In this document: piece after piece, positions 9,251 through 28,024 of the stretch
How the letters are laid out: each line of letters begins with the position of its first letter
Position numbering within the stretch: the first letter of the stretch is position 1
Made by a program: the position numbers and the translations under genes
DNA from: Pectinatus cerevisiiphilus
GTDB taxonomy: Bacteria; Bacillota; Negativicutes; Selenomonadales; Selenomonadaceae
NCBI RefSeq assembly: GCF_004341685.1
Contig: NZ_SMAA01000020.1
Coordinates: 1-39,341 of the forward strand
Reading direction: 5' to 3'
DNA: 39,341 nt
The notes under the pieces: model-generated
What the model saw: the letters and a program-made list of their open reading frames with translations, nothing else
Database searches by the model: none
What the model was told of the DNA's origin: nothing

Positions 9251-10063
9251 TTACAGATGTGAAGTGAGAATGGTTTCGGCCATTTTTACAGCGCGGTAAT
9301 TGGCTTTTACATCATGCACACGTACGAACATATAATTATTGAGTACTGCCATCACCGTAGTCACAAGTGTTCCTTCAAGACGCTGTTCAGTAGGCAGGTC
9401 AAGAGTAAGACCGATAACGGATTTACGCGACGTGCCAAGCAGTAAAGGTAGCTTGAGTTCATGCAGGATAGCCATGTGTTTGAGTAGAAATAAATTATCC
9501 GCATAGTTTTTGGCAAAACCGATACCTGGATCAAGGATGATTTTAGCGCGGTCAATACCGGCATTATCAGCAATTTGCAGAGTCTGGCGCAAATCAGTAA
9601 GCACATCTTGCAAATAGTTTTTATAATTTTTATCATGACGGTTATGCATTAGGCAGCAAGGCAGGTCGTTTGCAGCAATAACAGCCGCCATTTTTTTATC
9701 GTATTTTAATCCCCAGACATCATTTACCATGTCGGCACCAGCAGCTATGGCAGCTTTGGCTACTGCGGCTTTATAAGTATCAATGGATACGGGAACGGCA
9801 AAGTCCTTTTTTATTTTTTCAATTATGGGACAGACACGGTTGATTTCTTCTTCCTCGCTTATTTGGATGTGGCCGGGTCTGGTGGATTCACCGCCTATGT
9901 CGATTATGTCGGCACCGTCCGTGATCATTTCTGCCGTGTGGACGAGAGCTTTGTTGATGCTGTTGAATTTGCCACCGTCAGAAAATGAATCGGGGGTTAC
10001 GTTGAGTATCCCCATAATGTAAGTTTTATTTTCAGTGAGAAAATTTTTGTTGCCGATTAACAA
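9251..10063 (-). CDS. folP: dihydropteroate synthase
   Basis: 270 aa. Joins DHPP with p-aminobenzoate; the target of sulfonamides. Seen: MGILNVTPDSFSDGGK (17-32), DIIDIGGESTRPGH, VPVSIDTYK, NDVWG, CLMHNRHD, IILDPGIGFAK, LLGTSRKSVIG and VRVHDV, which is the full set of substrate loops. The start is TTG with AAAGGAAG about 10 nt upstream; an internal ATG (MGILN) would remove the first strand. First gene of folP-folBK-ADH. No folE or THF riboswitch is seen nearby. Confidence 0.93.
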   Translation of the reverse strand: MLIGNKNFLTENKTYIMGILNVTPDSFSDGGKFNSINKALVHTAEMITDGADIIDIGGESTRPGHIQISEEEEINRVCPIIEKIKKDFAVPVSIDTYKAAVAKAAIAAGADMVNDVWGLKYDKKMAAVIAANDLPCCLMHNRHDKNYKNYLQDVLTDLRQTLQIADNAGIDRAKIILDPGIGFAKNYADNLFLLKHMAILHELKLPLLLGTSRKSVIGLTLDLPTEQRLEGTLVTTVMAVLNNYMFVRVHDVKANYRAVKMAETILTSHL

Positions 10064-10476
10064 CGTCGAAGCACTTCCTTTAATTTAATGTATAGGTATG
10101 TTAGATGTTATTTTAGCTCAGCTGTTATGGGTACTGCTATATAATAAACGCAACTGCTGTAATGCTTCTGGGCAAATAGATTTCTGTTTAGATGTAAAAA
10201 TTATCGGCTGAATAAATGTATTCTGTGAAATGATAAAATTACCTGCTATAAATAAATTTTTCTACGACAGCAGCAATGTGATCTATTAGGAAGTTTGTTG
10301 ACTTTCTTAATACGGATAAATATAATTATCCTTACAGTAATAATCATATCATTGAAAATGTAATTTGGGAACAGCCGGTGGCTCTGCGCTGGAAATTTTT
10401 CCGGTATAGGACAGAGCTTTTGGTTATAAAGGCAAAATGCTTGAGCACTGTAAATAAATTCCAGGAGAGGCATTAA
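10064..10476. promoter_or_regulatory. 413-nt divergent spacer with structured leader
   Basis: AT-rich spacer between folP (minus) and the GGDEF gene (plus). It contains the strong plus promoter at 10298-10326 and, after it, a leader of about 145 nt with a nested hairpin: GCTCTG (10381-10386) pairs with CAGAGC (10412-10417) and encloses CTGGAAA/TTTCCGG. It does not match the c-di-GMP-I or -II aptamer consensus. No gene is seen in it. Confidence 0.45.
10298..10326 (+). promoter_or_regulatory. strong sigma-A promoter for the cyclase gene
   Basis: TTGACT (10298-10303), exactly 17 nt, perfect TATAAT (10321-10326). Predicted transcription start about 10333, giving a leader of about 145 nt. Confidence 0.7.
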
Positions 10477-12186
10477 ATGGAAAAAATGCGTGTACTGCAC
10501 ATTGTAAGCGATAAAAGTTTTGCGCAAAAAATACAGAAACTTGTCGAAGCAAATGGTTTTTCTTATGTACAGCTTTGCTTTGGTCGAGAAACAGACGAGG
10601 TTTTCGATGAAGTGTTTGCTGAAACTGAGTATAAACTGATTGTCCTAGATCAATTTGCGCCGTCGTTACCAGTGCGGGAACTGCTTGCTAAAATAAAAGC
10701 TAAAAATTTAGACGTACCTTCTATTATTGTTGTTTCTGCACAGCATGATTTTGAAAAGGAAAAATATTATTCACAGCTTGGTATTATGGCTCATTTTACG
10801 AAAGCTGATTTTGATGAAAAACGGTTTGCAAAGTATTTGCAGACAATTAAGGCGGAAGCGGAAAACACAGCCTTTTTAGAAGCTATGCGCATTGCCGTTC
10901 TCGATGACAGTAGGTTTAATTTGGATGTGATCAAGCAAATTTTTGCGGCCGCAGATATACAAAAGGTGGATTATTATCAGGATGCGGCGAAGTTTGTAGA
11001 AGAAAAAAAGCAGTATGATTTATATCTTGTTAATTTGGGAATGCCAGGTTATTGTGGTGAAGTGCTGGTTAATTATATAAGGCAGTTGAACAGTGAGGCA
11101 ATCATTATATTGATGACAGCGCACGATAACAAACAGATAATAGCGCATTGTCTCAGTTTAGGGGCGGATGACTTCATTATGAAGCCAATAGATTGTAAAT
11201 TGTTTATGCTCAGGATCAACTCATGTATTAATCACCATAAAATGAAAAAAGAGCTTATTTTGAAAAATAATGAGCTTTTAAAACTTGCAGAAAAAGATAA
11301 TCTTACTAATATATATAACAGGACATATTTTACGAAGCGCTATAAGGAAAACTTCCTCGCAGCAAAGCAGGAAGGTAGTCCTTTTGCATTGATAATGACG
11401 GATATAGATGATTTTAAAAATATCAATGATGAGTATGGGCATCTTGAAGGCGATCATGTACTGAAAGAATTTACGGCTATCCTGCAAAATAATATAACAG
11501 CAGATGAGGTTGTCTGCCGCTGGGGCGGCGAAGAATTTATTACTATTTTAAAAACTGGTGATTTGGCAAAGGTAATGGCTGTTGCTGAAAAAATGCGCAG
11601 TGATGTGAACGCACATATTTTTAAAAGTGCGACTGGTTTGACGGCAAGCTTCGGTGTTGCCTGCTGGCGTGCTGATGATACGAAGGAAAGCTTATTGAGA
11701 AGGCTGGATAATTCCCTTTATCTGGCTAAGATTACGGGAAAGAATAAAATTGTTTGTGAAGAAAAAGTAAAGGTAATGGAAAACGGAGTACCTATTCAAA
11801 TTGAATGGAGTCCGTTTTGGGCAAGCGGTAATGAAGAAATTGACAAGGATCACCGTAAGTTGGTACAAGATACTAATCAAATTATCGCCAATTATGTAAA
11901 TAATGGTAATGATAGGATTGTTTTTACTACGCTTGCCAGAATTATCAAAAATATGCCTGGACATTTTGATACGGAAGAGCATATTATCCAACGTTTTAAA
12001 TATGCAAATTATGAAGAACATAGGGAAAACCATCATGAACTTATAGCTAAGACAATAGATATATATAACGCTTGCCTTGCGCATAAATACAGTGCAATGA
12101 AGGTTGTGGAATTTATTGTTCAGGAGATATTGGTGGGGCATATCGTTAAAAAGGATTTTGGTTTTTATGATATTTTTACAAAATAA
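10477..12186 (+). CDS. REC-REC-GGDEF-hemerythrin diguanylate cyclase
   Basis: 569 aa, cytoplasmic, no membrane helix. Domains: a first receiver domain (about 5-120, D58 at the phospho-site position); a second receiver domain (about 137-255) with the acidic pair and KPID lysine but Asn186 in place of the acceptor Asp (YLVNLGMPG); a GGDEF domain (about 270-425) with intact GGEEF at 350-354, predicted to make c-di-GMP; and a C-terminal bacteriohemerythrin domain (about 443-565) with all seven di-iron ligands: H459, H496, E500, H515, H519, H555, D560. The autoinhibitory RxxD site before GGEEF is absent (TADE). The architecture predicts control by oxygen or iron as well as by phosphorylation on the first receiver. 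AGGAGAGG lies 6-8 nt before the ATG. Confidence 0.92.
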   Translation: MEKMRVLHIVSDKSFAQKIQKLVEANGFSYVQLCFGRETDEVFDEVFAETEYKLIVLDQFAPSLPVRELLAKIKAKNLDVPSIIVVSAQHDFEKEKYYSQLGIMAHFTKADFDEKRFAKYLQTIKAEAENTAFLEAMRIAVLDDSRFNLDVIKQIFAAADIQKVDYYQDAAKFVEEKKQYDLYLVNLGMPGYCGEVLVNYIRQLNSEAIIILMTAHDNKQIIAHCLSLGADDFIMKPIDCKLFMLRINSCINHHKMKKELILKNNELLKLAEKDNLTNIYNRTYFTKRYKENFLAAKQEGSPFALIMTDIDDFKNINDEYGHLEGDHVLKEFTAILQNNITADEVVCRWGGEEFITILKTGDLAKVMAVAEKMRSDVNAHIFKSATGLTASFGVACWRADDTKESLLRRLDNSLYLAKITGKNKIVCEEKVKVMENGVPIQIEWSPFWASGNEEIDKDHRKLVQDTNQIIANYVNNGNDRIVFTTLARIIKNMPGHFDTEEHIIQRFKYANYEEHRENHHELIAKTIDIYNACLAHKYSAMKVVEFIVQEILVGHIVKKDFGFYDIFTK

Positions 12187-12235
12187 AAAGCTGCTGGCTA
12201 TAGCAATGAATTTAACATAATTTACAATAATCGTA

Positions 12236-12264
12236 TTGCAAAGTATAGTCGATAATATTATAAT
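12236..12264 (+). promoter_or_regulatory. promoter for the NAGPA-domain operon
   Basis: TTGCAA (12236-12241), 17-nt spacer, perfect TATAAT (12259-12264); about 75 nt of leader before the ATG at 12345. Confidence 0.65.
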
Positions 12265-12344
12265 GCAAAAGGCAGTCAGTAGTTTCATAATACAGTTACT
12301 GCTCTGTTTTGTTTGTAAATAAATACGATTTATTGAGGTAATAA

Positions 12345-13292
12345 ATGAGGAGAAAAATTTTTAAAGAAATTGTAAAATTTTTTGCAGTAATGTTTATTTT
12401 ATTTATCCTTACGGCGCCTGTACTGGTTTTGTTTGGCCCATTCGCGAATTTAAAGCGTACAGTTGTCGGTGCTATCTTACAAAGTAAACATCCACAGTAT
12501 ATAACATGGCTGTTTTCACAGGACGAGCTTGATAGAATAGTAGGAAAAAATGAAACCTCACAGAAGCAGGAACTGCTCAAGCTTACGGGGAATGCAGATG
12601 GATCGATAAAATTACATACTATTGAGGCGTCACGTTATAGAGGTTTTATATTGGAAATAGCTGACCCTAAGCGCGTACAGGTGGCAACTGCGGGACAGCT
12701 TGGCGAAAGAGGGGAAACAACAAGCAATATTGCTATTGATAATAAGGCTATAGCGGCAATTAATGCCGGTGGGTTTTATGATGACAATGGGACAGGGACA
12801 GGACGTAAACCGTATGGTTTTATTATACATAATGGGAATTTTTTGTTAGGGGAAGCCTCTCTCCCGGAAGAGGTTAATGAATTCGTCGGTTTCAACCAAG
12901 AAGGGAATTTACTTGTCGGCAAGTACAGTAAGAAAGAATTAGGACAAATGGGGGCACAGGAAGGAATTTCCTTTGGGCCGCCGCTCATATTAAATGGTAA
13001 AAAAATGATTACGAATGGTGATGGGGGATGGGGAATAGGTCCGCGCACAGCTATCGGCCAGCGCAAGGATGGGACAATTTTGTTCTTGGTGATAGACGGT
13101 CGACAACCGTCGTATTCTCTCGGTGCCACATTGCGTGATGCGCAGGATATCTTGTACGAGGAAGGGGCCTATACTGCTGCAAATTTGGATGGCGGTTCCA
13201 GTTCAACCCTATATTTTAACGGTGAGGTCGTAAATAAACCGGCAGATTTGCTGGGGGAACGGATGATACCAACAGCATTTATCGTAAAATAG
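12345..13292 (+). CDS. phosphodiester glycosidase (NAGPA) domain protein, membrane-anchored
   Basis: 315 aa. One N-terminal membrane helix (about 10-30) anchors a NAGPA/DUF2233 domain (about 95-315). Family marks: AIAAINAGGFYDDNGTGTGRKPYGF, GISFGPPLILNG, IGPRTAIGQRKDGTILFLVIDGRQ, SLGATLRDAQDIL and ANLDGGSSSTLYFNG. The family cleaves a sugar from a phosphodiester-linked sugar and is often annotated as exopolysaccharide biosynthesis; the acceptor here is unknown. The domain faces the cell envelope. It is followed 9 nt later by a small anchored protein gene, with which it forms an operon. Confidence 0.88.
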   Translation: MRRKIFKEIVKFFAVMFILFILTAPVLVLFGPFANLKRTVVGAILQSKHPQYITWLFSQDELDRIVGKNETSQKQELLKLTGNADGSIKLHTIEASRYRGFILEIADPKRVQVATAGQLGERGETTSNIAIDNKAIAAINAGGFYDDNGTGTGRKPYGFIIHNGNFLLGEASLPEEVNEFVGFNQEGNLLVGKYSKKELGQMGAQEGISFGPPLILNGKKMITNGDGGWGIGPRTAIGQRKDGTILFLVIDGRQPSYSLGATLRDAQDILYEEGAYTAANLDGGSSSTLYFNGEVVNKPADLLGERMIPTAFIVK

Positions 13293-14420: not shown

Positions 14421-15326
14421 TTATATTTCATTTGGTAAAACCTCATTTAAAATATGCTGAACATTATGATATTCTTCATTTGTAATGGTAATTCCAGGAG
14501 CTCTAGTGTATGTGGAAATATCTAAGCCACGAATTTTAACTGCAGCTTTGATTGCTACAATAAACAAATCTGTCACATCATAAATTTGCATTAATTGGGA
14601 TACTAATTTACCATAGGTCATTGTTGCTTTGAAATCATTTGCTTCATAAGCAGCATGATATTTAACAAATAATTGAGGGACAACGTTTGTTAAACCGCAT
14701 AAAACACCATCACCACCAGCAAGACGATTGTCTAAATAATATTCATCAAACCCAGATAGTACAGAAAAATCTGGACGCACTGATTTGACAGCAGTAATTA
14801 ATTTACGCGTATGACTGATTGTATCTACAGTGTCTTTTATGCCAATAATATTTGGATGTGATTTAACTAATGAAACAAGTGCATCTGATGTTATATCTGA
14901 GCCAACGCGAGCCGGGAAGTTATATATCTGTATTGGAATAGAAACTTGTTGTGCTATTTTTCCGTAATAATCAATAATGCTTTTTTCTGTTGGTCCAAAA
15001 TAGAAAGGTGGAACAATATTGATAATATCAGCTCCAACCTTTTCAGCATAGGTGGCTAATTCTATAACATCCGTCCATATTGTACTACCAACACCGATGA
15101 GTATTTGAGAACGGTGGTGTACTGTTTTTACAGCAAGATCAATAAGCGCTTTTTTTTCCTTTATGGAACAAGCATAGAACTCTCCTAAGCTACCCCCAAA
15201 TAATAAGCCATTAATACCAGCATCACATAAATGATTAATATGTTCTTCCATATGTTCCATATCGATAGTTCCATCATCTTTCATAATTGTGATAACAGGA
15301 GTGTAAATCCCTTTAATTTTTGTCAT
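14421..15326 (-). CDS. yjhH: DapA-family 2-keto-3-deoxy sugar acid aldolase
   Basis: 301 aa, class I aldolase of the DapA/NAL family. Seen: GLLFGGSLGEFYACS (substrate carboxylate loop), Y135 in QIYNFPARVG and the Schiff-base lysine K164 in IGIKDT. In family members beside a YjhG dehydratase the substrate is 2-keto-3-deoxy-D-pentonate, cleaved to pyruvate and glycolaldehyde (E. coli YjhH/YagE). True dihydrodipicolinate synthase is less likely because there are no lysine genes around and the locus contains a sugar-acid dehydratase and permease. Last gene of the three-gene minus operon, 56 nt after the permease. Cytoplasmic. Confidence 0.85.
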   Translation of the reverse strand: MTKIKGIYTPVITIMKDDGTIDMEHMEEHINHLCDAGINGLLFGGSLGEFYACSIKEKKALIDLAVKTVHHRSQILIGVGSTIWTDVIELATYAEKVGADIINIVPPFYFGPTEKSIIDYYGKIAQQVSIPIQIYNFPARVGSDITSDALVSLVKSHPNIIGIKDTVDTISHTRKLITAVKSVRPDFSVLSGFDEYYLDNRLAGGDGVLCGLTNVVPQLFVKYHAAYEANDFKATMTYGKLVSQLMQIYDVTDLFIVAIKAAVKIRGLDISTYTRAPGITITNEEYHNVQHILNEVLPNEI

Positions 15327-15382
15327 TTTAATTTTCCTTTCTTAATTCATAATATATTATGAATCTATACCTAAAATTTTTA

Positions 15383-16729
15383 TTATACAAAAATTTCTAA
15401 TAATAATATAAATAACAATCCACAAATGGCTTGTATTGTAGACATTAATGTCCACGTAAAAAAAGTTTCTTTCATGGTTAGTCCAAAATATTCTTTAACC
15501 ATCCAAAAAGCGGCGTCATTTACATGTGAAGCAATAGTACTTCCAGCCCCTGTAGCTAATGTGACAAGTGCTAAATTTGCATCATATGTACTCAAAAGTG
15601 GAATAATTAATCCTGATGTAGAGATAGCTGCAACGGTTGCAGATCCTAGTGAAATTCGTAGAATTGCAGCTACACACCATGCTAAAATAATGGGAGAAAC
15701 TGAAGAACCTTCGAATAATACAGAAATATATTGTCCTACACCGCCATCAATTAAAACTTGTTTAAAAGCACCGCCTCCACCGATAATAAGTAACATCATG
15801 GCAATAGCAGCAACTGCTGTTGAACAAGAAGTCATTATATGTTTTACTGAAATATTCCTTTTTATGCCCATTGTATACATGGCTACTAAAATTGAAATAA
15901 TCATAGCAATAGATGGCTTTCCAATAAATTCAATCAAATTGAGTATATATATTCCTTTAAAATTAATAAAATCGGCAACAATCGTACTTATTGTGCCACC
16001 CATCATTAAAATAACAGGGAGCATTGCTGTGAATAAGCTTATACTAAAGGAGGGTAATTCCTCATTTTTGAATACAGTTGTTGTGCCTAGCGTTGAAATA
16101 TTTCCATTTCTTTCGAAAGCATTGGGAATAATTCTTTTGACAATTTTAGGGAAAAGTAGTCCTGCAATAATAACTGTTGGGATTGCTACTATGATCCCAT
16201 ATAATAAAACAGTACCAATGTTAGCACCATATTCTCCAGCAATTACAGTGGGTCCTGGATGAGGTGGTAAAAAACAATGTGCGGATAGTAATGAAGCTGT
16301 CATAGGAATACCAAGATATAGAGGGGCTATTTTCATTTCTTTGGCAATAGAAAAAATAATTGGTAATAAAAGAACTAATCCTACTTCAAAGAACATTGCA
16401 ATACCAATAATAAAAGAAGCAATTAACACTGCCAATTGGATTTTTGTGGTTCCAAATTTATCAATTAAAACCATAGAAATTTGCTGTGCTCCACCAGCAT
16501 CTGCAACAAGCCGTCCTAACATAGCACCTAATCCAAAAATTAATGCAATATGTCCTAACGTTCCACCAATACCTGCTTCAAGTAATTGAGCTATATTGTT
16601 TAAAGGAATACCGAAACAAATGGCAGCGAAAATAGAAATAATTAGTAATGATATAAAAGTGTTCATTCGGAATTTTGAGATAAGTATGATTAATAATACA
16701 ACAGCACAAGCTGTTATAATTAATGGCAT
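15383..16729 (-). CDS. GntP-family gluconate/sugar-acid:H+ symporter
   Basis: 448 aa integral membrane protein with about 12-14 hydrophobic helices. It has the GntP marks FGLGAMLGRLVADAGGAQQIS, FFEVGLVLLLPIIFSIAKE, SLLSAHCFLPPHPGPTVIAGEYGANIG and GAGSTIASHVNDAAFWMVKEYF. The length and context match E. coli YjhF/YagG, predicted carriers of xylonate-like acids. AAAGGAGTGA lies 9 nt before the ATG. It lies between the dehydratase (37-nt gap) and the aldolase; the likely role is uptake of the operon's substrate. Confidence 0.9.
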   Translation of the reverse strand: MPLIITACAVVLLIILISKFRMNTFISLLIISIFAAICFGIPLNNIAQLLEAGIGGTLGHIALIFGLGAMLGRLVADAGGAQQISMVLIDKFGTTKIQLAVLIASFIIGIAMFFEVGLVLLLPIIFSIAKEMKIAPLYLGIPMTASLLSAHCFLPPHPGPTVIAGEYGANIGTVLLYGIIVAIPTVIIAGLLFPKIVKRIIPNAFERNGNISTLGTTTVFKNEELPSFSISLFTAMLPVILMMGGTISTIVADFINFKGIYILNLIEFIGKPSIAMIISILVAMYTMGIKRNISVKHIMTSCSTAVAAIAMMLLIIGGGGAFKQVLIDGGVGQYISVLFEGSSVSPIILAWCVAAILRISLGSATVAAISTSGLIIPLLSTYDANLALVTLATGAGSTIASHVNDAAFWMVKEYFGLTMKETFFTWTLMSTIQAICGLLFILLLEIFV

Positions 16730-16766
16730 ATAGATGTCACTCCTTTAGACACTGTGTGTCAAACTA

Positions 16767-18740
16767 TTATTTTATTTCTAACGCTTTTTTCCCCGCTTGC
16801 AATACACTTATGATTTTGTCGACATTATACACTGCTCCACTCCAAGTGCCACCGCTTATGTCTTGTAATGCTGCCCATAACCGTGTATCATCAGGTAAAT
16901 CTTTGTCCGGGTGTACTGCTGGGTTAGTTTCCCTTTTGGATAGCACTTCTGCACCTTCTTCATATGTAAGGCGTTGTTTTTCAGTGCCAATAAAGTTTAT
17001 ACTGCCTTCCAACTTGACAGTGTCTACAATGATTTCTACGATGTCACCATTACGCAATTTCCCTATGGGACCACCAGCTAGTGCTTCTGGTCCGACATGA
17101 CCAAAACAAGCTCCTGTTGATACACCAGAAAATCTGGCATCTGTAATTAATGATACATGTTTGCCAAATGATAAATGTTTGAGTGCGGAAGTTAATTGAT
17201 AAGTTTCTTCCATTCCCGATCCTAAAGGGCCACCACCTATGACTATCATGATATCGCCGGCATGTATATTATCATTTTTTAATGCAATGATAGCATTTTT
17301 TTCTGATGTAAATACTTTAACTTTTGCGGTATGACGAAATACATGATCATTGTCAATAACACTAGGATCAATAGCAGTAGATTTTACTACAGATCCTTCG
17401 GGAGCAATATTACCTATTGGAAATGTCACAGTAGACCCAATTTTCTTACATTTTGCCTGCTCAGGACTGAAAATAATATCAGTATCACGTATATTATCTA
17501 ATTCTTCTAATCTTTTTTTACATTTTTGACGACGTTCTGATTGTTCCCACCAATCAAGGTTTTCGCCTAAGGTATTACCGGTTACCGTCATGACCTCTTC
17601 ATGAAGAAGTCCTTTACTGCGTAAATGTAGCATTACCTCAGGGACTCCACCAGCTAAAAACACATCAACAGTAGGATAATTAACAGGCCCTATTGGAAGT
17701 ACGCTGACTAAACGAGGGATTTCTTTGTTTATTCGTGCCCAATCGTGTACTGTAGGTACAGTACAATTCGCGGCAAATGCGATTGCTGGTAAATGTAATA
17801 ATAAGTTTGTAGATCCACCAAAAGCAGCGTGTATAATCATAGCGTTTTCAATTGCATGATCTGTTAAGATATCTTTTGTTGAAATATTTTTTTGTATCAT
17901 ATCCATTAACGCAAAAGCAGATTTTTTTGCTAAGTCTCTCCAAATTAGTTCACCTGATGGAGCTAATGCAGAATGCGGTATAGCTAGACCAAGACCTTCA
18001 GCGACAACTTGTGATGTTCCAGCAGTTCCTAGAAATTGACAACCGCCACCTACACTAGCACAAGAACAACAACCTAAACGAATAGCGTCTTTAAAAGAAA
18101 GTTCGTGATTGGCATATCGAACACTAATTGTTTGTACTGTTCCTAAGTCTTCTCCTTTTCGAGGCATCAACGTAGCGCCGCCAGGTACAATAATTGTAGG
18201 TAAAGAATGCATGCTAGCTAATGCCATCATCATAGCTGGTAATCCTTTATCACAAGAAGCAACTCCCATTACTGCCTTCCTTGTGGGTAAAGAGCGGATT
18301 AAACGTCGCATAACGATGGAGGCATCATTACGGTAAGGAAGTGAATCGAACATGCCTGTTGTTCCATTCGTTCTACCATCACAAGGATCTGTTACGAATG
18401 TAGCATGTGGTACATAACCCAATTGTTTAAATGTATTAGCTGCTTCTGTTAACAAAGTTCCTAATTCAAAATGTCCTGGATGTAAACCTACGGCAACAGT
18501 ATGTCCGTCATCGGTACGTATTCCTCCTTTTGTGCTAATAAGCATAATATCACCGTTAGCTAATGTTTTGGGATCCCACTTCATGCCCGCATTGACAGTC
18601 ATACCGAAAATATTACCACTAGGTGATTGTTTCAAGAGCTCTGGAGTTAATGGTAGATTTCCATCTGGACCATCTGCATGTGTAGCTAGGTCTTGATACA
18701 AAGACGGATCTTCATTTTGGTATAATGTTTTTACTGTCAT
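16767..18740 (-). CDS. yjhG: D-xylonate dehydratase (YjhG/YagF, IlvD/Edd family)
   Basis: 657 aa, the length of E. coli YjhG/YagF (about 655), longer than ordinary IlvD/Edd. Iron-sulfur dehydratase turning D-xylonate into 2-keto-3-deoxy-D-xylonate. Seen: THADGPDGNLPLTPELL near the N terminus, FVTDPCDGRTNGTTGMFDSL, VASCDKGLPAMM, CCSCASVGGGCQFLGTAGTSQ (cluster cysteines), IHAAFGGSTNLLLHLPA, NIAPEGSVVKSTAIDPS and LITDARFSGVSTGACFGHVGPEA. All are typical of the YjhG branch. First gene of the operon; a perfect 12-bp inverted repeat lies 31 nt upstream. AT-rich codon use compared with the left neighbours suggests acquisition. Confidence 0.9.
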   Translation of the reverse strand: MTVKTLYQNEDPSLYQDLATHADGPDGNLPLTPELLKQSPSGNIFGMTVNAGMKWDPKTLANGDIMLISTKGGIRTDDGHTVAVGLHPGHFELGTLLTEAANTFKQLGYVPHATFVTDPCDGRTNGTTGMFDSLPYRNDASIVMRRLIRSLPTRKAVMGVASCDKGLPAMMMALASMHSLPTIIVPGGATLMPRKGEDLGTVQTISVRYANHELSFKDAIRLGCCSCASVGGGCQFLGTAGTSQVVAEGLGLAIPHSALAPSGELIWRDLAKKSAFALMDMIQKNISTKDILTDHAIENAMIIHAAFGGSTNLLLHLPAIAFAANCTVPTVHDWARINKEIPRLVSVLPIGPVNYPTVDVFLAGGVPEVMLHLRSKGLLHEEVMTVTGNTLGENLDWWEQSERRQKCKKRLEELDNIRDTDIIFSPEQAKCKKIGSTVTFPIGNIAPEGSVVKSTAIDPSVIDNDHVFRHTAKVKVFTSEKNAIIALKNDNIHAGDIMIVIGGGPLGSGMEETYQLTSALKHLSFGKHVSLITDARFSGVSTGACFGHVGPEALAGGPIGKLRNGDIVEIIVDTVKLEGSINFIGTEKQRLTYEEGAEVLSKRETNPAVHPDKDLPDDTRLWAALQDISGGTWSGAVYNVDKIISVLQAGKKALEIK

Positions 18741-18771
18741 AATAAATTTATCCTTTCTATTATTTATATTT

Positions 18772-18807
18772 GTACGTATATAAGAATCAAATTATTTATA
18801 TACGTAC
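18772..18807. promoter_or_regulatory. perfect inverted repeat, candidate operator of the IclR regulator
   Basis: GTACGTATATAA (18772-18783), 12-nt spacer, TTATATACGTAC (18796-18807). Each arm contains the self-palindrome TACGTA. It lies immediately downstream of the predicted minus-strand transcription start (about 18812), a position suited to repression. Confidence 0.6.
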
Positions 18808-18818
18808 GATTTTCTTAG

Positions 18819-18847
18819 ATTATAACACATAATCATATAATATGAAA
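18819..18847 (-). promoter_or_regulatory. promoter of the xylonate operon
   Basis: On the minus strand: TTTCAT, 17-nt spacer, perfect TATAAT (18824-18819). The weak -35 fits a regulated promoter. Confidence 0.5.
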
Positions 18848-19331
18848 TAGTGTATCTCAAATATTTTATTTAAAAATGAAGGGTAAAATATCACATATAT
18901 AATAATATTGAATAGATATTGTTAATAGTTTTTTATTATCTTGAAGAAATTTATTGAATTATTCTGGTTAAAGTAAGTGTATTAGATGACAATGATAATT
19001 CTGAATACATTAAGAAATGAGTATATTAATTGTGTTTTCAAAACGAGCTAAATAACCAGTTATAGAATGCATAGAGTCTTTAATAAACAATCTTTTTTCA
19101 ATAGAAAAGTGTCTTAAAATATAAATGTTTATTTGTATCTAATGTCGTGTTATGATTATTATGTTTTATAGTAGGTATTTAGAATATTTTTTGTATATTA
19201 TAAGGGCACTATGTATTCGTTATGTATTTAATTTTATTTTATAATTAAGCAAATAGATTATTAACTTTTATCTACATATGTTGTTATTTTTGATTTGTTG
19301 TAAAATATAATTAAAGATAAGTATAAGTTTT

Positions 19332-20105
19332 ATGCAGGAGATGAATTTATTGGCACACAAACCAACAGAACGTGTCTTAAGTGTTTTGAGTTTACTTGCG
19401 ACACACCCCGAAGGACTAACCTTGACTCAGATTACGAAACTTCTTTGTATCCCTAAAAGTACGCTTTTTCCGATTCTTCAAGAAATGGTGCAGGAGAAAT
19501 TTCTCCATTTATCAGAAAAGGAGAATCTTTATTTTATTGGAATAGCAGCATACTGTATTGGAGCAGCATATGAATATGATAAAACGTTACTTCCTTATAT
19601 AAAATCAATTATGAATAAAATTTCGCAAGAAATAAATGAAATGTGTCAAGTCGGCGTATTGGATGGGCCGAATATTTTGTATATTTTAAAGCAGGATCCA
19701 GATGTTGCACATACTATAAAAATTATTTCCTATATTGGGAAGAAACTGCCCGCATATTGTACAGCACTTGGTAAAGCTTTACTATGTCAGTATACATTAA
19801 AAGAATTGAAGAATTTGTATCCAAATGGTCTTGTACCACAAACAAAGAATACTGTTATTGATTTTGATAAATTATATAAACAATTGCAACTAATAAAAAG
19901 TACACAGGTTGCATCTGAATTTGAAGAAGTCACAGAGCAATTGTGTTGTTTTGCTGTACCTATTCGGTTACCAAATTCTCGACAATATGCAATGAGTATT
20001 AGTATGCCGTTATTCCGGGCAACAAAAGAAAAAATTGCGTTGGCCCAGAAACTTCTTTTACAGGCAAAATCATCTATTGAATCTTTTAATATGAGTGTAG
20101 ATTAA
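19332..20105 (+). CDS. IclR-family transcriptional regulator
   Basis: About 251-257 aa. N-terminal winged helix-turn-helix (KPTERVLSVLSLLATHPEGLTLTQITKLLCIPKSTLFPILQEM) and the C-terminal IclR effector domain (GVLDGPNILYILKQ, KKLPAYCTALGKALLCQY, FEEVTEQLCCFAVPIRLP). It is divergent from the dehydratase-permease-aldolase operon, like E. coli xynR/yagI and yjhI beside their operons, so it probably controls that operon through the inverted repeat at 18772. Start uncertain: the ATG at 19332 has no ribosome site, while TTG at 19350 has AGGAG 9 nt upstream and gives the N terminus MAHKPTERV; I prefer 19350. Confidence 0.9.
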   Translation: MQEMNLLAHKPTERVLSVLSLLATHPEGLTLTQITKLLCIPKSTLFPILQEMVQEKFLHLSEKENLYFIGIAAYCIGAAYEYDKTLLPYIKSIMNKISQEINEMCQVGVLDGPNILYILKQDPDVAHTIKIISYIGKKLPAYCTALGKALLCQYTLKELKNLYPNGLVPQTKNTVIDFDKLYKQLQLIKSTQVASEFEEVTEQLCCFAVPIRLPNSRQYAMSISMPLFRATKEKIALAQKLLLQAKSSIESFNMSVD

Positions 20106-24917: not shown

Positions 24918-25580
24918 TTATTTTTCTGGCAGGTCAAAAAGTTTATAACGCAATGCATAATTTACCAGTTCACTTTTCTTACTTATGTCGAGCTTTGTAA
25001 AGATACGTGTTTTATAGGTGTCGATTGTTTTTAAACTGAGGTGTAACTGACTGCCTATTTCAGCAAGTGAATAGCCGCGTGCCAGGTAGCGCAGAACTTC
25101 AAGTTCACGTTTGCTCAGTAACAGGTAGGGATTATCGTCATTGTCATTTTTTATCATTGTATTGAGCATAGAAAGGGCATTTTTATTGTTTAGATAAGTT
25201 TCTCCCTTCATGACTGTATGCAATGCTGTTAAAAGTTCTGTGTCAAAAGCACTTTTTTCTACATAACCGTCAGCTCCGGCGGCCAAAGCTTCCCTTATGT
25301 ATTCTTCTTCTGTATGCATGGTTAAAACCAGGATACGGATGTTTTTGTATGTCTTTTTTGTTTTTAGCAGTTTTAAAAGGTCAATGCCGTTTATCCCCGG
25401 CATGGATAAGTCGAGAATGATTAAATCTGTTTCGGTAACGGTAAGCTTATTCATCAGTTCTTCTCCGTTGCAGGCTTCTTCGACTATTTCTATGTCTTTT
25501 TCTGCCTCAAGTAAAAGCTTAAGTCCTGCCCTCAAAATAGCATGGTCATCGACAAGTATCACTTTGATTTTAGTCATCAT
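24918..25580 (-). CDS. NarL/FixJ-type response regulator (REC-LuxR HTH)
   Basis: About 220 aa. Receiver domain with acidic pair DDH, phospho-acceptor in IILDLSMPG (D57 counting from the chosen ATG), TMHTEEE and the conserved lysine in VEKSAF; C-terminal LuxR/GerE helix-turn-helix (LLSKRELEVLRYLARGYSLAEIGSQLHLSLKTIDTYKTRI). The frame can be read from 25610, but AAGAGGAA right before the ATGATG at 25580/25577 sets the start. The gene begins inside the last codons of the histidine kinase gene, a sign of coupled translation. Its likely target is the OPA transporter gene at 28.2 kb (inference). Confidence 0.92.
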   Translation of the reverse strand: MMTKIKVILVDDHAILRAGLKLLLEAEKDIEIVEEACNGEELMNKLTVTETDLIILDLSMPGINGIDLLKLLKTKKTYKNIRILVLTMHTEEEYIREALAAGADGYVEKSAFDTELLTALHTVMKGETYLNNKNALSMLNTMIKNDNDDNPYLLLSKRELEVLRYLARGYSLAEIGSQLHLSLKTIDTYKTRIFTKLDISKKSELVNYALRYKLFDLPEK

Positions 25581-26997
25581 TATTCCTCTTTTCGACAGGT
25601 ATGGATGCAATAATAGACGTTCCTTTTTCTGGGCGCGATTTTATATCCAGCGTTCCATCTAAAAGCTCGACCCTTTCCCGCATGCCGTACAAACCTAAAT
25701 GCCTCTTTTCTTTTGCGGTTTGTAATACATCGGCAGAAAAACCGCAGCCATCATCCGTAATTTTAAGAATAATATTATTGGCATGCAGCTTTAACGATAC
25801 TGTCAAATTAATGGCATGGGCATGGCGGACAATATTGGTTATGGATTCCTGCAAAATGCGATATAAAGCCAGTCGGACATTATCAGATACTTTGATGTCT
25901 TTTATGGCCGTGTCTGCTGAAAAATCGGCGATCAAGCCATTGTGCTTGGCAGCGTCGAACACATGCTGCTGAAAAATTGCTGTTATATCAATATCGTCAA
26001 GGCTGGGCGGACGCAAATTTACGGCCATTTCACGAAGTTCTTCTAGGACAGAGGCGATTATAGTGCGGGTAGATTTTATTAATTTTTGCTGGCTAGGGTT
26101 CGTTTCGTTGTTAAATAAAATATGTAGGTAAGCAAGGATAGAAGTTACAGACTGGCCGACTCCATCATGGAGTTCACGGGAAATTCGTTTACGTTCATCC
26201 TCCTGCGCAGAAAAAAGTTTGTGGATGAGAATATCGCGGCTATGCTTCTTTTCTTGTAATTCTGCCAGTAATTTTTTATTGTATTTATCTTTAGCAGCCA
26301 ATTCACAGACCATTTCATTAAAAGTCTGCGTCAGTGTTCCTAATTCATCTTTGCCATGATAATAAACTTGCACTTTATAATCATTGTGTTTGATTTTTTC
26401 CGCAGCAAGGGAAAGAAATCTAATCGGTGCAAGAATTTTTGCCAATAAAAAGCCGATTGTGAGCACTGCTAAAATAGTAATAATGATACCGGTTAGAGAA
26501 AAATGCATTATTATCGACATTAAAAGCTGTTGCATGGCTTTTTCTGATAAACCTACAGAGACAAAACCAATCTTTCCGTCATCAATAGATAAAGTGACTT
26601 GATGAATGTCCCCTTCATTACTTTGGAAAAGTTTAGTCTGCAAAGGTGTACTGAATGGTGTTATCTGTTTTGGCATACTGTCTGGATATTGCATGCCGAA
26701 AGTATGTGCTAATATGCGTCCTTTGTAATCGGCAACAATAATATAACGCACGTCATCATTGCTGGATTGTACTTTATTGATAAGCTGTAAAAGTAGATAA
26801 TCATTTTCGAGAAGGATATCTTCACTGCCCAAGGTAGCAACATATGAGGCAATTTCGCTGCCACGGTTAGTTAGCTGGTCGTGTAGTGTGTTTTTTAATC
26901 CAGTATACGCAAAAATAAGTAAAAGGGATATTACTGTCAAAAGACTTATGATGATGATAGTCAGTATTTTGGTGTATAAGCCAGTCTGCTGTTTCAT
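25570..26997 (-). CDS. NarX/UhpB-type membrane sensor histidine kinase
   Basis: 475 aa. Two membrane helices (about 10-31 and 163-186) bracket a 130-residue extracytoplasmic sensor domain (SEIASYVATLGSED...VRYIIVADYKGRILAHTFGMQY, single-Cache-like). HAMP about 184-236, a short coiled coil, then HisKA_3 with phospho-acceptor H277 in RISRELHDGVGQS, and HATPase_c with N-box LQESITNIVRHAHA and G-box DDGCGF, GLYGMRERV, GTSI. Its ATG overlaps the stop of the periplasmic-binding-protein gene by 4 nt. Partner of the LuxR-type regulator encoded next. Confidence 0.92.
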   Translation of the reverse strand: MKQQTGLYTKILTIIIISLLTVISLLLIFAYTGLKNTLHDQLTNRGSEIASYVATLGSEDILLENDYLLLQLINKVQSSNDDVRYIIVADYKGRILAHTFGMQYPDSMPKQITPFSTPLQTKLFQSNEGDIHQVTLSIDDGKIGFVSVGLSEKAMQQLLMSIIMHFSLTGIIITILAVLTIGFLLAKILAPIRFLSLAAEKIKHNDYKVQVYYHGKDELGTLTQTFNEMVCELAAKDKYNKKLLAELQEKKHSRDILIHKLFSAQEDERKRISRELHDGVGQSVTSILAYLHILFNNETNPSQQKLIKSTRTIIASVLEELREMAVNLRPPSLDDIDITAIFQQHVFDAAKHNGLIADFSADTAIKDIKVSDNVRLALYRILQESITNIVRHAHAINLTVSLKLHANNIILKITDDGCGFSADVLQTAKEKRHLGLYGMRERVELLDGTLDIKSRPEKGTSIIASIPVEKRNNDD

Positions 26998-27962
26998 AAG
27001 TCTGTCATCACCTTGTCATATATCTTTTTGTATGGCGTATATAGCTGCTGCTGTGGTGCCACAAATTTATCAATCATTATTTTCTTTAGCGATTTAGCCA
27101 TTTGTGGGTCATTATGCATGTTAAAAAGTAGTTGCTGGAGCTTTTCCTTTTGTTCTGCGGGCAGGTCGCTGCGCACTACGATTGGCCCAATAGGAATATT
27201 GCCAATGGTTTGAAAGATTTTGATACCATTGGTATCCTCAGGATGGTCGCCCAAAATCAGATCGTAAACTAAGCTGTCAACGCATGCCGCATCAACTAGT
27301 TTATTTTTTACAGCCCAGATGGAACGGTCATGGCTCCCCGTGTAAATATAATTGCTGAAATAGTGACTGGGACTGGTTGCATAGCGGGTGTTGAGCTCAT
27401 TTACTATGTTTATATGGCCGGAGTAGCTCAATGGGTCGGAAAAAGCCATTGTTTTGCCGCGTAGATCGTCCATTGAATTAATATCATTGCGCGAGGACAG
27501 GGCTATTAGATAAGTTTTATAATCCATCGTGCCTTGATAAAATATCATAGCTAAAACATCCAGTTGTTGAATGCCGTGATAAGAACAATACGCACCTGTT
27601 GACATGAAGGATATATCAGCATCGCCGTTGGAGAGTAATTGGTCAATTTCCTTGTAGCTGCGCCGTTGCAGTAAAATGGTAGGCCTGCCCAATTTCTTGC
27701 TTATGTAATCGGCAAAGGCACGCCAGTCTTCAATTGTTACATTTGGTGAAATAACGGTGGAAATAACAATGCGCAGGGGTCGTTCCTGCGCATCACTGCC
27801 CGCTGTGCTGTACCGCGGAGGCGTAAAGGGAGTTCCCTTGCTAAAATCAATGTAGGAGTCATAAGTATCAGGATGGGCATAAGTGAATGCAATAAAGGAA
27901 AAAATTAGGATGAGGAGAAGAGCAAAATAATGTTTATCTTTTAGATGGTGAAACATGGACAT
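26994..27962 (-). CDS. PhnD-like periplasmic binding protein, sensory component
   Basis: About 322 aa from the chosen start. The first 29 residues have a signal sequence (FALLLILIFSFIAFTYA). The mature part is a phosphate/phosphonate-type (PhnD family) binding domain: PLRIVISTVISPNVTIEDWRAFADYISKKLGRP, DADISFMSTGAYCSY, SRNDINSMDDLRGKTMAFSDPLSYSGH, DAACVDSLVYD, PIVVRSDLPAEQKEKLQQLL. There are no ABC permease or ATPase genes nearby, so it probably presents ligand to the kinase encoded 4 nt later. An in-frame ATG at 28022 exists, but the promoter at 28025-28054 would place the RNA start after it; AAAGGTTGG before the ATG at 27962 decides. Confidence 0.85.
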   Translation of the reverse strand: MSMFHHLKDKHYFALLLILIFSFIAFTYAHPDTYDSYIDFSKGTPFTPPRYSTAGSDAQERPLRIVISTVISPNVTIEDWRAFADYISKKLGRPTILLQRRSYKEIDQLLSNGDADISFMSTGAYCSYHGIQQLDVLAMIFYQGTMDYKTYLIALSSRNDINSMDDLRGKTMAFSDPLSYSGHINIVNELNTRYATSPSHYFSNYIYTGSHDRSIWAVKNKLVDAACVDSLVYDLILGDHPEDTNGIKIFQTIGNIPIGPIVVRSDLPAEQKEKLQQLLFNMHNDPQMAKSLKKIMIDKFVAPQQQLYTPYKKIYDKVMTDL

Positions 27963-28024
27963 AATATACCAACCTTTATAAAAATGCTTGTTTGGAGAGG
28001 AAAATAAGACCATAATCTGCAAAT

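Follow-up and report, generated by a model that had tools for sequence, protein, structure and literature searches.

A PleD-like response regulator of Pectinatus cerevisiiphilus with two incomplete receivers, a probable diguanylate cyclase domain and a C-terminal hemerythrin domain

Introduction

The window analyzed here is a stretch of 39,341 nucleotides from Pectinatus cerevisiiphilus. Positions 10477–12186 of its + strand carry a gene whose product joins two receivers, a GGDEF domain and a hemerythrin domain in one chain. According to PMC11510336, the beer-spoiling Pectinatus are obligate anaerobes. The question is what controls such a protein: phosphorylation of a receiver, the redox state of a di-iron site, or neither of them. 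The initial annotation of this DNA proposed that c-di-GMP output is set by oxygen or redox together with phosphorylation of only the first receiver. Our preferred reading, to which we give an even chance, is that of a PleD-like response regulator that has lost its phosphorylation input and is controlled mainly through the redox state of its C-terminal di-iron hemerythrin domain.

Results

Domain order and predicted fold

The open reading frame starts with ATG, has no internal stops and encodes 569 amino acids. From the N-terminus, the protein consists of a first receiver (REC1), a second receiver (REC2), a cyclase domain with a GGEEF motif and a hemerythrin domain. Pfam matches above the cut-off were obtained for a receiver at residues 139–244, for GGDEF at 272–424 and for Hemerythrin at 451–564. 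The predicted structure of the full-length protein has a mean pLDDT of 83.2, with residues 217–221 below 50, and a pTM of 0.57, which makes the relative placement of the domains unreliable. In the model one can recognize the elements that make up two receivers, followed by a long helix at residues 240–271, the GGDEF domain and a helical bundle. Pfam, NCBIfam, the alignment and the model agree with the initial annotation on the content of the sequence, that is, two receivers, an intact GGEEF, an absent RxxD site and a C-terminal hemerythrin domain with seven ligands.

The receiver–receiver–GGDEF order resembles that of PleD from Caulobacter. The ten best solved matches to the whole model are PleD structures; their TM-scores by query length are low (0.28–0.32) because the domains are placed differently. 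PleD is also the best NCBIfam model (NF007135), with 203.2 bits over residues 130–428 only, far under its cut-off of 474. Unlike the protein studied here, PleD has no hemerythrin domain. The part of the protein formed by REC2, the long helix and GGDEF resembles DgcR from Leptospira: the DgcR model gave 127.2 bits (cut-off 500), and PDB entries 6zxb and 6zxm were matched. The model of CbrR from C. difficile stayed below its cut-off (93.7 bits versus 600). The P. cerevisiiphilus genome contains 9 GGDEF and 5 EAL matches, and thus enzymes that make and that break c-di-GMP are encoded in it.

The cyclase domain

The GGDEF domain occupies residues 272–425 (11290–11751, + strand, as for all features of the gene). 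Its Pfam match scores 137.4 bits at a cut-off of 23.8, and the GG(D/E)EF motif expected in the sequence of a diguanylate cyclase is intact (GGEEF at 350–354). The motif is GGEEF in every compared row that covers this region. The long helix between REC2 and GGDEF (residues 240–271; 11194–11289) likely forms the coiled coil of a dimer, as in DgcR (PMC8041772).

The RxxD inhibition site is replaced by T341-A-D-E344 (11497–11508). RxxD is present in all nine hemerythrin-bearing rows outside the clade of the P. cerevisiiphilus protein, namely two paralogs located beside a gene read by eye as rpoB, two further P. haikarae copies, and the proteins from Megamonas, Fusibacter, UBA5559, Proteocatella and G651. 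Within the clade it is lost in four of four members, where the two positions read T/E in P. cerevisiiphilus, V/N in P. haikarae, P/D in P. frisingensis and T/G in the Pectinatus genome G004. The three whole members of the clade are grouped with a support of 100/100, and the N-terminal fragment from G004 joins them at 100/99. One of the two receiver–receiver–GGDEF rows without hemerythrin has RxxD. Judging from these motifs, the protein is a probable diguanylate cyclase without the RxxD product-inhibition site.

The two receivers

The receivers were compared over 15 rows: the P. cerevisiiphilus protein, 11 other whole four-domain proteins, the G004 N-terminal fragment, and two receiver–receiver–GGDEF proteins without hemerythrin. 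REC2 (residues 137–245; 10885–11211) matches the Pfam receiver with 81.9 bits at a cut-off of 30.2. Its D143, D144 and K236 are invariant in all 15 rows, and position 214, Thr in our protein, is Thr in 13 rows and Ser in two. At the phosphorylation position, all 14 relatives whose REC2 could be read have Asp, and only the P. cerevisiiphilus protein has Asn, with the codon AAT (11032–11034) where the P. haikarae relative has GAT. Asn186 at the acceptor position had been correctly recognized in the initial annotation. Thus, REC2 has four of the five conserved active-site residues of PF00072. Among replacements of the receiver phospho-Asp, Asn is the next commonest after Glu (16%), and Asn at the acceptor site can revert to Asp through deamidation, as reported in PMC4395418.

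REC1 (residues 4–124; 10486–10848) is more difficult to recognize. When the N-terminal 137 residues were scanned alone, the Pfam receiver gave 20.5 bits, which is below the cut-off of 30.2. At E ≤ 0.01, a profile of ten REC1 sequences retrieved 66 different PDB sequences (best E 3.4e-7), most of them annotated as response regulators or as CheY-like, and receiver strands and helices are present in this region of the predicted model. REC1 retains D58, S87 and K109. At the position of the two acidic residues of canonical receivers it has Val10 and Ser11 (codons at 10504–10509), so that the set of five active-site residues of PF00072 is incomplete here as well. The same register was obtained from the profile–profile alignment of REC1 with REC2, from the REC1 profile against solved receivers, and from the residues at which the first helix of the model begins (13 and 146). 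Both positions are acidic in none of the 15 rows; the first one is acidic in seven and the second one in a single row (Megamonas). By this comparison, REC1 is a weak, degenerate receiver across the receiver–receiver–GGDEF–hemerythrin family, with not one complete acidic pair in the 15 rows.

To compare the rates of change, we counted private changes in P. cerevisiiphilus and P. haikarae over five domains, using P. frisingensis as the outgroup. REC1 has 17 private changes in P. cerevisiiphilus and 6 in P. haikarae (p 0.022–0.035; binomial 0.035), a difference that loses significance when corrected for five domains. For REC2, we looked for a rate shift that would point to lost function and saw none (14 versus 10 sites, p 0.41–0.54), and the linker has 3 changes versus 4. 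Of all domains, only the speed-up of REC1 is suggestive.

These data bear on the mechanism of the initial annotation, which would have Asp58 of REC1 take the phosphoryl group and control divided between REC1 and hemerythrin, with REC2 as a pseudo-receiver like that of PleD. Such a mechanism is consistent with the retained D58, S87 and K109 and with the order of PleD, which is described as a receiver followed by a pseudo-receiver and the cyclase (PMC12632262). Asp12, located directly after V10/S11, could be the residue that binds the metal. Nine rows have both D12 and D58, and six have neither; this would fit an odd but working REC1 site, and a single split of the tree could also account for it. 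The mechanism has to contend with V10/S11 at the acidic pair, with Glu, Ala or Gly in place of D58 in six rows (it is retained in nine Pectinatus and Megamonas rows), and with the faster, if not significantly so, change of REC1 in the P. cerevisiiphilus lineage. A one-residue shift of the acidic pair, which would make D12 a metal ligand, was considered; all three comparisons used to set the register make it less likely, as they place D12 one residue beyond the pair. We find it very unlikely that REC1 shares control in this way. Taking together the register and the 15-row comparison, in which REC2 carries the Asp in all relatives and has lost it only in the P. cerevisiiphilus copy, we rejected REC1 as the sole phosphorylated receiver as the best reading.

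Since REC1 lacks the acidic pair and REC2 lacks the Asp, neither receiver of the P. cerevisiiphilus protein is complete. A 2025 review defines a pseudo-receiver as a receiver missing any of the five residues (DD, D, T/S, K), and both receivers fall under this definition (PMC12632262). The PleD pattern of a complete first receiver and a pseudo second one was not found; in the four-domain family the degenerate receiver is the first. In DgcR, a protein without hemerythrin that has an acidic pocket (E12, D13) and a phosphorylatable D56, the coiled coil shifts when the receiver Asp is modified, and the GGDEF domains can meet (PMC8041772). As REC2, the long helix and GGDEF are built as in DgcR, REC2 phosphorylation was likely the ancestral input.

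Two receiver–receiver–GGDEF proteins without hemerythrin (L050:1974-3254 and L067:1504-2787) have Gly or Ala at the phospho-Asp of the first receiver. Thus, the PleD build with exchanged receiver roles is wider than the hemerythrin fusion.

The hemerythrin domain

The hemerythrin domain (residues 440–569; 11794–12183) carries H459, H496, E500, H515, H519, H555 and D560. The Pfam match (PF01814) scores 27.3 bits at a cut-off of 25.3. The NCBIfam hemerythrin domain TIGR02481 was passed with 71.5 bits (cut-off 51.75), and the score for bacteriohemerythrin, NF033749, was 70.4 bits, below its cut-off of 84. The same letters stand at all seven positions when the domain is aligned with 4XPX, a hemerythrin from Methylococcus, and with a single-domain protein of this kind encoded in the P. 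cerevisiiphilus genome. With five His, one Glu and one Asp in place, a di-iron site is predicted. Only 51 of 130 residues (39%) are identical to the domain of the P. frisingensis relative, yet all seven ligands are kept. If changes are assumed to fall at random over the domain, the hypergeometric p of this retention is 0.0011, and it is 0.015 for the closer P. haikarae relative.

The domain modelled alone has a pLDDT of 88.8. Foldseek with this model gave no matches at E ≤ 0.001 (best E 0.0043), though the first 14 rows were all hemerythrins (DcrH, Methylococcus, invertebrate). Re-alignment of Foldseek's own list gave these 14 rows Z-scores of 14.0–17.6 and rmsd values of 2.0–2.4 (2.0 over 129 residues for the best row); the next row, an unrelated protein, had a Z-score of 11.3. 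By these values, up to Z 17.6, the predicted model has the four-helix hemerythrin fold. The domain shares this fold and the seven ligand positions with DcrH-Hr and the Methylococcus bacteriohemerythrin at an identity of 17–21%. In DcrH the hemerythrin domain is C-terminal too (PMC2556348). However, DcrH is a chemotaxis receptor and the Methylococcus protein has a single domain, whereas the protein studied here is a cyclase fusion.

All seven ligands are present in 10 of 13 four-domain proteins, the G004 C-terminal fragment included. One ligand is lost in each of the other three: H515Y in the rpoB-side paralog of P. cerevisiiphilus, H459N in its P. haikarae counterpart and H515Q in Megamonas. 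When ten four-domain proteins were scanned, Pfam Hemerythrin was above the cut-off in five (the 10477–12186 protein, L033, L036, L039 and L066), and below it in L035, L037 and L058; L034 and L038 gave no listed match at E ≤ 1. For the proteins that fail Pfam the ligand states rest on the alignment; among them is that of P. frisingensis, which is unlisted by Pfam and has all seven. The lost ligands and the small number of Pfam passes indicate that the hemerythrin domain drifts and that iron is not always needed. The main counter-evidence to redox control is that three four-domain relatives have an incomplete set of ligands, so that proteins of this layout may manage without iron.

One could therefore suppose that hemerythrin is a structural or metal-holding tail, serving dimerization, iron storage or peroxide removal, and not a sensor for the cyclase. 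The three lost ligands agree with such a role, in particular since the rpoB-side paralogs of two species have lost different ligands and kept the REC2 and GGDEF motifs. It is harder to reconcile with the complete ligand set of the P. cerevisiiphilus copy, with the seven ligands in 12 of 12 simpler GGDEF–hemerythrin fusions that we read, and with the redox-controlled Bhr-DGC of Vibrio cholerae. A tail of this kind is in our view decidedly improbable.

Spread of the layout

The initial annotation implied that a hemerythrin domain at the C-terminus of a cyclase is unusual. It turned out that the receiver–receiver–GGDEF–hemerythrin order occurs in four of five Pectinatus genomes, including P. haikarae and P. 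frisingensis, as well as in Megamonas sp. UBA1796, Fusibacter bizertensis, Firmicutes bacterium UBA5559, Proteocatella sphenisci and genome G651. We also scanned whole classes, scoring at most three candidates per genome, so that the counts are lower bounds. On this basis, the four-domain order was seen among 380 genomes of Negativicutes only in Pectinatus and the Megamonas genome, and in at least two of 391 genomes of the class of Fusibacter. At least 22 matches running from GGDEF through hemerythrin without these receivers were found in at least 14 of the 380 Negativicutes genomes. The residue-by-residue reading covered nine of these 22 matches; G043:C18, a match with internal stops, was left out, and the receiver–receiver–GGDEF-like match L068 was excluded because no GG(D/E)EF frame of at least 150 amino acids was found in it. 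The fusions read, from Negativicutes and the class of Fusibacter, have the same GGDEF–hemerythrin order as our protein, but their N-terminal parts are not two receivers.

Published surveys also count more C-terminal than N-terminal hemerythrin domains. In the 2016 survey the numbers for long proteins are 117 and 52 (PMC4919030), and in another one they are 53 and 30–31 (PMC2556348); the multidomain hemerythrins given in the latter, as far as its domain counts describe them, include none from Firmicutes. A chance or one-off fusion was rejected on the grounds of the recurring layout, the class scans, the retained ligands and these surveys. The initial annotation was right that characterized hemerythrin cyclases have the domain at the N-terminus. 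N-terminal hemerythrin with C-terminal GGDEF is the arrangement given in a 2022 review (PMC9388753) and the second most frequent layout of the 2016 survey, with 22 proteins (PMC4919030). PG_0686 from Porphyromonas gingivalis, reported in 2023, is likewise a diguanylate cyclase bearing a hemerythrin domain; it differs in its PAS-like part and its distant likeness to known cyclases, and the regulatory role of its hemerythrin is left undecided in what PMC10101095 says of it.

In the open-licence literature searched, we recognized no experimental work on a GGDEF protein whose hemerythrin domain is C-terminal. French et al. 2008 is said to be a survey of prokaryotic hemerythrins. The layout may already be listed there or in the supplementary tables of PMC2556348 and PMC4919030. 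The parts and the kind of protein are already known, and the domain combination is a recombination of well-known parts; the novelty lies in how the domains are ordered, in the exchange of roles between the receivers and in the fact that both of them are lost.

The P. cerevisiiphilus genome contains a second four-domain copy, 42% identical to the first, adjoining a gene that we read by eye as rpoB. This copy (L037:4004-5692) and the rpoB-side copy of P. haikarae (L038:1989-3668) have each lost a different ligand and have REC2 and RxxD intact. Possibly, these paralogs represent the reverse specialization, with phosphorylation retained and iron lost.

Gene neighbourhood

The cyclase gene comes after a Sel1-repeat gene in P. 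haikarae, P. frisingensis and G004, where folate genes, identified by eye, and a gene with an HD domain are also close by. Pfam confirmed Sel1 and HD for the P. frisingensis neighbours, with 12 repeats matched in the Sel1-repeat protein. Folate genes lie upstream of the 10477–12186 gene as well. In the P. cerevisiiphilus genome, however, neither the Sel1 protein (threshold 1e-60) nor the HD protein (1e-5) found a match; both genes are present in the four other Pectinatus genomes. No Sel1 or HD remnant beyond chance was found in the window, including 10064–10476 (best E 0.26).

A block at 10208–10350 (+ strand) is 70% identical to the P. haikarae DNA between the HD gene and the start region of the Sel1-repeat gene, and 10298–10344 is 83% identical to G004 DNA. 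The best promoter-like site within 10000–12500 (10298–10326, 11 of 12) lies inside this block; 22 such sites were found where 10.6 are expected, so any single site means little. The block is perhaps the old promoter of the Sel1 gene, now ahead of the cyclase. The simplest account is that one deletion took the Sel1 and HD genes and left the cyclase behind the old Sel1 promoter. The Pectinatus genome G001 has the Sel1 and HD genes and no cyclase of this four-domain family, and thus the pairing of Sel1 and cyclase is not strict. Rfam gave no families at the gathering score within 10000–12600.

After the loss of its Sel1 partner and of the phospho-Asp, the gene might also be losing its job altogether, with a drifting cyclase that is always on or always off. 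The changes to N186 and V10, the lost RxxD, the absent Sel1 and HD genes, and the split of the same gene in G004 and its apparent absence from G001 would all be expected from such decay. Private changes over all domains are also more numerous in P. cerevisiiphilus than in P. haikarae (50 versus 32, binomial p 0.06). Against this, the reading frame, GGEEF and all seven iron ligands are intact, there is no significant speed-up over P. haikarae in GGDEF (8 versus 4) or hemerythrin (8 versus 8), and the block conserved with P. haikarae, carrying the promoter-like site, stands upstream of the gene. We consider decay unlikely. Relaxed drift rather than specialization could also be behind the losses.

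In G004 the cyclase gene (L040:2007-3706) is interrupted within the GGDEF domain and runs in two reading frames; both a mutation and an assembly error are possible.

Proposed control of the cyclase

The sequence by itself establishes an intact cyclase motif, the absence of RxxD, seven hemerythrin ligands, and two receivers that each miss part of the phosphorylation site. Our preferred reading, that of a PleD-like regulator now under mainly redox control, would connect them as follows. In the ancestral state, a kinase would phosphorylate REC2 beside the coiled coil, and the resulting shift would let two GGDEF domains meet, as in DgcR. REC1 would serve as an adaptor, as if in a PleD whose two receivers had swapped roles. 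In the P. cerevisiiphilus lineage, the loss of the REC2 Asp and of the upstream Sel1-repeat and HD genes would leave the receivers as a fixed dimer scaffold, and the output would then be controlled mainly by the di-iron site. The diferrous (reduced) state, normal for an anaerobe, would keep the cyclase on. Oxygen would oxidize the di-iron site and change the bundle attached to GGDEF, and the activity would fall, as for the V. cholerae Bhr-DGC. In the absence of RxxD the product would not be limiting via that site.

Bhr-DGC combines hemerythrin and GGDEF in one chain, and its c-di-GMP synthesis is redox-controlled: the diferrous form works at 0.77 per min and the diferric form at 0.073 per min, which is about ten times slower (PMC9388753). 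As hemerythrin is the only recognizable sensor left in our protein and Bhr-DGC is faster when diferrous, activity may be expected under reduced, anaerobic conditions and a drop on oxygen. However, Bhr-DGC has hemerythrin at the N-terminus and GGDEF at the C-terminus, and its description in the review mentions no receivers (PMC9388753); the order is reversed in the 10477–12186 protein. With hemerythrin at the opposite end, the coupling and its sign are not safely transferable. By analogy with Bhr-DGC, a redox input to the cyclase is plausible; the redox step as such, its sign and a hemerythrin–GGDEF contact are inferred for this protein. The interpretation given in the initial annotation thus stands in part. 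A probable cyclase without RxxD, an intact hemerythrin domain, a genus of anaerobes and, by analogy, a plausible redox input were retained, and the idea of an unusual C-terminal position and phosphorylation of REC1 alone were not. A stronger form of our reading, in which the protein has no tie left to any kinase, neither receiver functions, the product no longer inhibits and c-di-GMP is set by redox through the C-terminal di-iron tail alone, is tentative, and we would sooner doubt it than accept it.

If the preferred reading is true, the protein would be a hemerythrin cyclase whose sensor follows the catalytic domain. It would also provide a natural before/after pair for a change from phosphorylation to redox control, alongside the loss of the Sel1 partner, with the sister-species proteins that have a complete REC2 as ready comparisons. 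In beer-spoiling Pectinatus, oxygen exposure would be tied to c-di-GMP and hence possibly to motility or attachment.

Other genes in the window

Two further groups of genes were seen in the window. On the − strand, 24918–28022 contains consecutive genes for a LuxR-type response regulator, a histidine kinase with HAMP and sCache domains, and a phosphonate-type periplasmic binding protein, likely a three-part sensor. A probable sugar-acid cluster lies at 14421–20105 and includes a DHDPS-like aldolase, a GntP permease, an IlvD/Edd dehydratase and, across a gap, an IclR regulator.
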